A stretch of 33,216 bases of DNA from a virus: positions 1 to 33,216 of the IMG/VR virus record IMGVR_UViG_3300020165_000084, one strand, 5' to 3'. Made by a program: the position numbers and the translations under genes. Position 1 is the stretch's first letter, and every line of letters starts with the position of its first letter. Below the pieces are notes generated by a model. The model worked only from the letters and a program-made list of their open reading frames with translations. It was not told where the DNA came from and did no database searches. Shown in pieces: positions 9,880-25,786 of the stretch.

Positions 9880-9894
9880 CGTTATCATATTATG
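9880..9894 (+). promoter_or_regulatory. CGTTATCA motif abutting start codon, site A
   Basis: CGTTATCATATTATG: the octamer CGTTATCA followed by TATT and the ATG of the small terminase gene. The same layout occurs at 14845, 22490 and 25772, each at the head of a late transcription unit. Candidate late promoter element or start-site signal. Confidence 0.6.
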
Positions 9895-14004: not shown

Positions 14005-14164
14005 AATAATAGATTATGACAAAGGGATTATATATCTAAATCCTAATAACATTAGTGAACTAGAGCAACAGATAAGAGACTGTAAAATAATAATGAATAA
14101 CGGAAATATATATTTAGCAATGGACAACATTGAAGACATACTAAACAACATTAAAGACATATAA
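13997..14164 (+). CDS. Small protein, unknown
   Basis: A 55-codon frame overlapping the previous gene by 8 bases. The protein starts with a strand pair (KIIDYDKGIIYLNP) and ends in a helix (MDNIEDILNNIKDI). It is the last gene of the small-gene block, 20 bases before a terminator. Confidence 0.55.
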   Translation: MLKIIDYDKGIIYLNPNNISELEQQIRDCKIIMNNGNIYLAMDNIEDILNNIKDI

Positions 14165-14184
14165 AACATTTGTTTTGGTTAGTC

Positions 14185-14223
14185 AAAAGAGGGGTTAAAG
14201 CTTAGGTTTTAGCCCTTTTTTTT
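14185..14223 (+). terminator. Rho-independent terminator of small-gene block
   Basis: AAAAGAGGG (14185-14193) pairs with CCCTTTTTTT (from 14213), allowing one G-T pair, followed by T's to 14223. The inner part GGGTTAAA/TTTTAG adds weaker pairing. It insulates the structured region downstream. Confidence 0.75.
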
Positions 14224-14283
14224 ATACGCTTTATTATATACATTTATTTTTTAATGTTCTGATAATGAGATATTATATATAGT

Positions 14284-14291
14284 GATATTTG
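14284..14291 (+). promoter_or_regulatory. Possible promoter box GATATTTG
   Basis: GATATTTG differs by one base from TAnnTTTG. It lies just upstream of the first structured segment of the gene-free region, so it could start a non-coding transcript at about 14296. No clear -33 box is seen; weak call. Confidence 0.3.
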
Positions 14292-14816
14292 AACAACCTC
14301 ATTTAAGCTCATTTAAGAGCCTCTAATTACCTCATCTATATACATATACATTTATTTAAATATCTTTCTTTAAACATAGCTTAAAACGATTCAGAATATA
14401 TTATTTTAATGCGTTTATATATATAATTAACGTAAATCGGAGATGGCTGAGGTAAGTAGCCCACTCTTATGATTTCATTACAAAAACGAATTATTCTAAA
14501 ACTCATATTCTAAAAATATAAATATAATTTTAAAACGAGTTGAGTAATTAAAAGGTGTATTGATGGAGTTTTATTCGCCCTCCTCTTTATATATGTTACT
14601 TTAAATGTTGTTAGCTAGACAACTGGTTAGCTGATGTACTCGTTGAGTTGAATGATACTAGGGCGTTCACGAAAATAACAAAAGGATTTAGTATCGCAAT
14701 TCTCAAGGAGATTTAGGTTACCTGAACCAATAGGAGTCTATGCCTAAAGTGTAGCAACTTATACAGATTTGCAACTGTCTATATAGATAACGATATTTTT
14801 TATTTTTGTTTTTTTA
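14292..14816 (+). ncRNA. Candidate large structured non-coding RNA
   Basis: This gene-free stretch holds many mutually compatible helices. GCTC/GAGC hairpin (14307-14320); hairpin GGCT (14445-14448)/AGCC (14458-14461), extended by GAG/CTC; its loop with the adjoining T, TGAGGTAA (14448-14455), is perfectly complementary to TTACCTCA (14327-14334), a long-range pseudoknot. AATTATTC (14489-14496)/GAGTAATT (14542-14549) encloses AACTC/GAGTT (14500/14537). CGCCCT (14576-14581)/AGGGCG (14660-14665) crosses GATACTA (14654-14660)/TAGTATC (14689-14695), a second pseudoknot. TTTAGG (14712)/CCTAAA (14743) follows. Imperfect pairs are G-U on the + strand (they would be A-C on the other), which supports + strand RNA. 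T-rich 14793-14816 could end it. Size and phage setting recall GOLLD/ROOL-type RNAs; identity is not shown. Confidence 0.6.
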
Positions 14817-14844
14817 TACTGTTAAAACAAAAAGTAGTGGATTT

Positions 14845-14859
14845 CGTTATCATAGTATG
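14845..14859 (+). promoter_or_regulatory. CGTTATCA motif abutting start codon, site B
   Basis: CGTTATCATAGTATG in front of the tail-chaperone gene. The same spacing to the ATG as at sites A, C and D. An A-rich AAAACAAAA element lies 12 bases upstream. Confidence 0.6.
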
Positions 14860-15579
14860 GTAAAAGAATATAAGTTAGAAGTACCTACTAAGTTAGAGGG
14901 TATAACATTAAGACAGTATCAGGATTATCTAAAAGTGTTAGATAAATGGGATAAGGAAGATGAGGTGTATATTAAGACAAAGATGTTGCAGATATTTTGT
15001 AACCTAGATATAGAGGATACATTTAAAGTACCTATAAACAACTTTGATTTTGCTATTGATACAGTAAATAGATGTTTTGATGAAGAGAAGCCTTTAGTTA
15101 ATAGATTTGAGATGTCTGCTAAAGATGAGTATGGAGATGAGACTATTGTTGAGTTTGGTTTTATACCAAAGTTAGATGATATGTCATTTGGAGAGTTTAT
15201 TGATTTAGATAATAATATATCTGATTGGCAGAATATGCATAAAGCAATGGCTGTCTTATTCAGACCTATTATCTTTAAGAAGAAGGAGTTTTATAGAGTG
15301 ATGGATTATGAAGGGAGTCATAAGTACTCAGATGTAATGTTGGATATGCCAGTTAATGTAGCGATAGGGGCGATGGTTTTTTTTTATCGTTTAGGGAGAA
15401 AATTACCGAGTTATACGGTGGATTATTTAGTGAAGGTGTTGAAGAAACAGGGAGTTCCACCTCAGCTCAAGCAAACTTTGGACAAAAGTGGGGTTGGTAT
15501 CAATCAATATTTACAATCGCTAAAGAAGATGCAGCTAGAATTGATGAAGCAACCAGACTTCCAATACATACCTGTTTAA
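14857..15579 (+). CDS. Tail assembly chaperone-like protein (short, zero-frame product)
   Basis: A 240-residue protein. The conserved middle, FGFIPKLDDMSFGEFIDLDN with WQNMHKAMAVLFRP (about 113-150) and MLDMPVNVAIGAMVFFYRLG (about 157-180), is a pattern common in flavobacterial phages. The start ATG 14857 is fixed by the CGTTATCA motif; the frame is open to 14806 but without support. From 15377 on the codons shift to G/C-ending choices (GTG, AAG, CAG, CTC), because the same bases are also read in the -1 frame. Overlapping frame and position at the head of the tail genes match the gpG/gpGT chaperone pair, which coats the tape measure during tail assembly. Confidence 0.7.
   Translation: MVKEYKLEVPTKLEGITLRQYQDYLKVLDKWDKEDEVYIKTKMLQIFCNLDIEDTFKVPINNFDFAIDTVNRCFDEEKPLVNRFEMSAKDEYGDETIVEFGFIPKLDDMSFGEFIDLDNNISDWQNMHKAMAVLFRPIIFKKKEFYRVMDYEGSHKYSDVMLDMPVNVAIGAMVFFYRLGRKLPSYTVDYLVKVLKKQGVPPQLKQTLDKSGVGINQYLQSLKKMQLELMKQPDFQYIPV
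15377..15385 (+). other. Programmed -1 frameshift site, nine T's
   Basis: A run of nine T's contains the heptamer T TTT TTT in the correct phase for -1 slippage. The -1 frame is closed by TAA at 15354-15356 and has no ATG, GTG or TTG before 15579, so its well-formed protein can only be reached by slipping here. Confidence 0.75.
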
Positions 15580-22466: not shown

Positions 22467-22489
22467 TATAAAACAAAATACATTAAATA

Positions 22490-22504
22490 CGTTATCAAAT
22501 TATG
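22490..22504 (+). promoter_or_regulatory. CGTTATCA motif abutting start codon, site C
   Basis: CGTTATCAAATTATG in front of the prohead protease gene. Same spacing to ATG as the other sites, with AAAACAAAA 11 bases upstream. Confidence 0.6.
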
Positions 22505-25746: not shown

Positions 25747-25771
25747 ATTATAAAACAAAAAAGAAAAATAT

Positions 25772-25786
25772 CGTTATCATAATATG
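25772..25786 (+). promoter_or_regulatory. CGTTATCA motif abutting start codon, site D
   Basis: CGTTATCATAATATG in front of the gene preceding the portal. It follows a strong terminator, so a new transcript must start here; this is the strongest argument that the motif is a promoter. Confidence 0.65.

Follow-up and report, generated by a model that had tools for sequence, protein, structure and literature searches.

A probable minus-strand structured RNA family in a gene-free gap of uncultured Bacteroidota-type phages

A gene-free gap in the window, the whole 33,216-nucleotide stretch of IMG/VR virus record IMGVR_UViG_3300020165_000084 analysed here, which comes from a marine phage, probably encodes a stand-alone structured RNA that is transcribed from the minus strand by its own promoter and acts in trans (probability about 0.65). 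Judged from sequence comparison, this RNA is under selection as RNA, because its fold is kept in about 100 related sequences despite changes in their letters. Since the fold is kept while the letters change, the molecule itself, and not a protein, must be useful. The occurrence of the RNA in several phage groups, in single copy where searched and with each group's own promoter type, leads to the same view.

The earlier note on this DNA had placed a large structured RNA in a gene-free gap at 14292-14816, and the gap was confirmed: the ORF listing of the window contains no ORF of at least 60 aa between 14004 and 14806, and the longest small ORF inside the gap is 41 aa. No conserved coding frame was found, and one-base insertions and deletions occur in the core among near-identical phages, which therefore disfavours a coding role. 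Groups B and C (defined below) have a short reading frame, KSLEW...SIYV, within the 3' half; it was rejected, since neither the window's group nor L214 keeps it intact. The folding energy of the single sequence lies near that of shuffled sequences for either strand (z of -0.08 for plus and -1.38 for minus). Single-sequence folding was therefore discarded as showing no signal beyond chance, and the case for structure rests on comparison with relatives, which bears out the large structured RNA as well.

Searches against known RNA classes gave no assignment. Rfam cmscan at the gathering cut-off returned no matches in the window and 13 related loci; GOLLD, ROOL, group I intron and tmRNA, the four models that the earlier note had proposed for scanning, together with 6S-Flavo and phage pRNA, all stayed below their cut-offs in the window and its relatives. 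A permissive Rfam scan of 14100-15000 yielded a single chance miRNA match and nothing else, and ARAGORN found neither tRNA nor tmRNA in the whole window. A group I intron, suggested by a P3/P7-like topology, was rejected on the absence of P8 and of any model match. Searches with blastn against INPHARED and PLSDB gave chance matches only, or none, and a literature search for a phage RNA fitting the present description found none.

Relatives were collected by searching IMG/VR with the gene downstream of the gap (14857-15579, PHROG 32199), which gave 77 loci. Groups were defined by identity of the downstream protein, namely A (about 97%), B (about 80%) and C (about 64%). As the earlier note had proposed, the homologous gaps upstream of gene 14857 were compared and tested for covariation; the gap is conserved in groups A-C and its helices covary, and in more distant homologues of the gene the upstream element is absent. 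A pattern built from one end of the element matched 103 stretches in IMG/VR, and a second RNA pattern recovered almost exclusively the same contigs. By these pattern searches the element is present in about 100 IMG/VR contigs. Members in other gene contexts were L218, L211, L240, L222 and L244, L227, L214, and a wide group (L206, L208, L220, L234, L238 and others) in which only the initial 65 bases of the RNA are shared. In the contigs searched, comparison shows one strong copy per genome. No neighbouring protein common to all clades was found.

All of the carrier phages are known from uncultured contigs only, and they belong to several different phage groups. Among cultured phages that have the downstream gene, the nearest are Nonlabens phages P12024L and S, and both are without the element. 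No believable copy was found in 396 Bacteroidota genomes, as would be expected of lytic phages. A weak match in Bacteroidota genome G335 reads as coding and was rejected, as was an R1 match in the L050 contig, which falls in an apparent coding stretch. The suggestion of the earlier note that the RNA is new and belongs to flavobacterial phages thus holds in the form of Bacteroidota-type phages with Nonlabens phages as their nearest cultured relatives, and of an RNA with no Rfam match.

The secondary structure is preserved by compensatory changes. The covariation score was 0.344 against 0.134 in shuffles for alignment A2, 0.495 against 0.166 for alignment A3 and 0.422 against 0.157 for alignment A4, where none of 500 shuffles scored as high. 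By parsimony on a FastTree tree of 32 sequences, at least 24 compensatory double changes were counted, against 0-1 in controls slid by 1-3 columns. Base-pair covariation alone does not separate RNA from single-stranded DNA, so that only the promoters described below argue for RNA and for its strand.

The fold is given here in the minus-strand sense. The 5' domain consists of three hairpins. P1 (14763-14778), the 5'-terminal hairpin ACAG-UUGCAAAU-CUGU, has a covarying stem and a near-invariant loop in 46 sequences. In the same number of sequences, the stem of P2 (14747-14760; AAGU-UGCUAC-ACUU) is invariant and therefore contributes no covariation evidence, and all four pairs of P3 (14731-14746; UAGG...CCUA) change on both sides. 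The hairpins are followed by a conserved UUGGUUCAGGUAA at 14718-14730, with the family form UUGGWNCNNNYA in alignment A3.

Next comes P4, a nine-position outer helix around P5 in which CUC-C-UUGAG (14702-14710) pairs with CUCAA-C-GAG (14639-14647). Six of its eight pairs change on both sides, as found with alignment A4, and in nearly all sequences a lone C stands opposite another C, so that the RNA strand has a C-C mismatch here. Inside it, P5 (S2 in the strand comparisons) joins GAUACUA (14689-14695) to UAGUAUC (14654-14660), with covariation among 11 sequence types, and P6 (S1) joins CGCCC (14661-14665) to GGGCG (14576-14580), with compensatory versions specific to clades. The 3' strand of P6 lies within a G-rich run at 14576-14585 that is present in most clades. 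A hairpin GCUA...UAGC (14614-14631) is dispensable, being absent from L043, L044 and L105 in the alignment.

The crossing of these two helices with directly adjacent strands, reported in the earlier note, is present (14576-14580/14661-14665 and 14654-14660/14689-14695), and both helices covary strongly. A sixth S1 pair that had been counted with them, T14581-A14660, is lost in group B and would use a base of the other helix. In the plus sense of the window, S1 reads CGCCC/GGGCG in the window, TCGCCC/GGGCGA in group B, TTCTGCC/GGCAGAA in L160, TGATGCCC/GGGCATCA in L043, GCACCC/GGGTGC in L044, AGCACCC/GGGTGCT in L218, GTCCCC/GGGGAC in L227 and GCACCCC/GGGGTGC in L214. The versions of S2, in the same sense, are GATACTA/TAGTATC, AGTACTA/TAGTACT, AATGCTA/TAGCATT, ACTACTT/AAGTAGT, GATATT/AATATC, AATATC/GATATT, GTTAT/ATAAC and GATGT/ACATC. 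Within their own clades 71 of 71 S1 and 70 of 71 S2 pairs form (141/142 in total), against 69% and 47% for strands exchanged from one clade to another; the strand table was picked by eye, and the swap control is a measure of specificity, not of discovery. In group C the S1 strand is itself a GTTTAATATnnnGGGG module, with CCCCCC. Group C members (L102, L114, L130 and L138) carry such modules in tandem, in one to three copies, between the pseudoknot and the hypervariable segment of the 3' half.

This hypervariable, C/A-rich segment (14438-14460 on the minus strand) corresponds to the hairpin loop region of the earlier note. It is preceded by a conserved GAAAUCAU (14469-14476; DNA form GAAATCAT), which is found also in L214 and L050, and followed by a conserved UUUACGU (14430-14436; DNA form TTTACGT), an alignment anchor found also in the divergent L214. 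From anchor to anchor, the window's group measures 33 and all other sequences with both anchors measure 34, and the sequence between the anchors is variable. Even in the window's own group, the segment and its flank are among the most variable stretches of the RNA. Further on lies a conserved UGAGGU (14329-14334; DNA form TGAGGT), the TTACCTCA of the earlier note, which is also found in L214. The pairing proposed there between the loop and TTACCTCA did not withstand comparison: own pairs averaged -7.30 kcal/mol against -7.45 kcal/mol for swapped ones, and 1519 of 2000 permutations were at least as good. Pairing of the segment with the G-run or with UUGG..AA was weak (95 and 78 of 2000 permutations, uncorrected for relatedness) and is not claimed.

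The ends of contig G001 break at the hypervariable segment. In the contig behind L014 (ends L198/L199, classed as linear), the two ends share an overlap of about 165 bases, and their divergence falls exactly at this segment, which suggests that the site differs within one population. Because of this overlap and divergence, the contig end was rejected as a genome terminus at 14291. The L014 contig is probably a complete genome that was missed as such owing to population variation.

The RNA is estimated from its sequence features at about 450-590 nt. A hairpin at 14215-14191, which belongs to the terminator behind the upstream plus-strand genes and has a weak U run on the minus strand, could stop the minus-strand transcript and would then limit the RNA to at most about 590 nt; a terminator scan of the minus strand reported none. 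Upstream of the RNA region in L043, L044 and L100 (plus strand), short direct repeats like CTTAAAACAGC lie between the terminator and an ACGTAAA motif.

The earlier note had read the RNA on the plus strand. The promoters instead place it on the minus strand, with a start near 14780. A -35-like AAACAAA and a -10-like CGTTATC (14786-14811, minus strand) form a putative promoter of the type that serves the structural genes, and it is conserved in relatives. The pattern AAACAAAN{10,15}CGTTATC has four matches in the window, where 0.00 are expected; three precede plus-strand genes 14857, 22502 and 25784, and the fourth is the minus-strand match at 14811-14786. The likely late promoter AAACAAA-N10-15-CGTTATC thus lies on the plus strand at 14825-14851, 22471-22496 and 25753-25778, with an ATG six bases beyond, and for gene 9892 the CGTTATC part alone fits, at 9880-9886 (plus strand). 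An ATG directly behind the late promoter suggests leaderless mRNAs. The predicted transcription start of the RNA, 14780 on the minus strand, is where the spacing from CGTTATC equals that to the A of the ATG in genes 9892, 14857, 22502 and 25784, and it falls two bases ahead of P1. In group C phages, AAATGA-N-TTGTTATAATACT-ATG stands in place of the window's late promoter. Nonlabens phage P12024L has an annotated sigma-70 region 2 protein (L196 3457-3936) that may be the factor serving the unusual late promoter.

Comparison shows a promoter-like motif at this fixed place, ahead of P1, in most of 67 distinct loci, and its type varies by phage group: CGTTATC in groups A and B, TTGTTATAA in group C, and TATATTTG or a near form in most of the L206 group. 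AAATGA-N-TTGTTATAA is common to the RNA promoter and the gene promoters of group C. The motif type of the L206 group is that of the hosts, the Bacteroidetes -7 element TANNTTTG, whose G occupies position -5 in Flavobacterium (PMC6847099). This spacing sets +1 in the L206 group at P1 or within about two bases of it, as in L206 itself (TATATTTG-TTAA-ACAG). Exact TANNTTTG occurs in 11 of the 67 upstream stretches on the RNA strand and in three on the opposite strand, and the rest of the L206 group has one-mismatch forms such as TATATTTA. The statement that imperfect pairs are all G-U on the plus strand leaves the strand unsettled, as in 32 sequences the minus strand has 13 G-U against 11 A-C cells, and neither strand is clearly favoured. 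The result is a clean strand-specific prediction that can be checked in existing metatranscriptomes.

According to the proposed working, the RNA would be transcribed from the minus strand by its own promoter at about 14811-14786, starting near 14780. Its 5' end would fold into P1-P3, then P4 around the P5/P6 pseudoknot, followed by the G-rich run, and in its 3' half conserved anchors would flank the hypervariable C/A-rich segment. Within the window's group, RNA and structural genes would be made together, because they have a promoter type in common. A protein of the phage or of the host may be bound by the invariant 5' hairpins together with the pseudoknot, and the hypervariable segment may determine which partner is recognized, a partner that would vary from phage to phage; this last step is a guess and rather doubtful. 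A functionally new class of RNA, in which marine Bacteroidota phages combine a constant pseudoknotted scaffold and a 5' hairpin platform with the hypervariable C/A-rich segment, of almost constant length, as an exchangeable specificity element directed towards nucleic acids or proteins of hosts or competitors, is unlikely.

Action in trans is the simplest reading of the gene context, since in three clades (the window group, L227 and L214) no co-directional gene is seen beside the RNA, the neighbours there lie on the other strand, and an obvious target for regulation in cis is thus missing. A co-directional 77-aa gene and a NinG gene follow the RNA in the L206 group, and in the wide L206 group it stands between lysis genes and the NinG-bearing operon. 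These downstream genes, together with the three hairpins at the 5' end behind a promoter, would suit a cis-acting leader: its 5' domain would open the transcript of an operon, or an early transcript, and would influence either RNA polymerase or how the following gene is translated, after the manner of the put RNAs of phage HK022. The opposite orientation of the neighbours on that side in the three clades, and a pseudoknot core and 3' half that far exceed a leader, make this quite unlikely. A replication pre-primer or R-loop RNA comparable to ColE1 RNA II, with the G-run hybridizing to the template near an origin, is distinctly improbable too: the G-run occurs in most clades, and the L206-group RNA adjoins replication-type genes (NinG and a weak DnaB-like match) and is followed by mirror-symmetric polypurine/polypyrimidine tracts, but the window RNA sits between the terminase region and the structural genes, and some members have GTAGGC only and no G-run. 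These mirror repeats, between the RNA and the 77-aa gene in L208, L219, L220, L234 and L238 (for example AAAGAAAGAAAAAAGAAAA-gtaacc-AAAAGAAAAAAGAAAGAAA), stay symmetrical while their pattern changes from phage to phage, which is what a triplex would require.

A packaging RNA working like phi29 pRNA would account for the late-type promoters common to the RNA and the structural genes in the window group, and a terminase gene lies within a few kb in the window, L227 and the L218 group. It is nevertheless very unlikely, given that no nearby terminase was seen among the L206-group loci examined and that Rfam, including the phage pRNA model, gave no match. Conservation of base pairs would fit single-stranded DNA as well as RNA, so the region might be a DNA element (an origin, or a packaging or recombination site) whose hairpins act as folded DNA, and the GTTTAATATnnnGGGG repeats of group C are in keeping with this. 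A DNA site, however, has no need of differing promoter-like motif types at the same place before P1, which renders it highly improbable. A promoter-driven, trans-acting RNA from the minus strand is thus the preferred reading.

Several known systems bear comparison with this RNA. The put RNAs of HK022 are hairpins at the very 5' end of a phage transcript. The present RNA has three 5' hairpins and, in addition, a long pseudoknotted body, and several of its clades have no downstream gene to antiterminate. ColE1 RNA II is likewise structured, is driven by a promoter, contains a G-run and measures about 550 nt; the likeness is in size, promoter and G-run, without sequence relation. With phi29 pRNA it shares the character of a phage-encoded structural RNA, and the window copy has the promoter type of the structural genes, but its helices are different and it has no Rfam match. 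The 6S-Flavo, Flavo-1 and other RNA motifs of Bacteroidota are structured non-coding RNAs (Weinberg 2010, PMC2864571) that have Rfam models, none of which matches the present RNA.

GOLLD and ROOL, large structured and pseudoknotted RNAs of phages and prophages that contain no gene (PMC12286853), are the kind to which the earlier note had likened the gap RNA. What stands of this is a large pseudoknotted phage RNA in a gene-free stretch. The present RNA is smaller and matches neither covariance model, so that the likeness is one of size only, with no homology found; GOLLD and ROOL are also often, though not always, near tRNA islands, and the window is without tRNA by ARAGORN. On its sequence, the gap RNA may be classed outside GOLLD and ROOL, as a new family of its own in the loose assemblage of large non-coding RNAs from phages. 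Its recurrence in different phage groups, behind each group's own promoter type and in single copy where searched, makes it worth testing. The large non-coding RNAs of phages, a short list so far, would gain a family whose strand is defined, whose 5' end is predicted and whose pseudoknot is backed by covariation.
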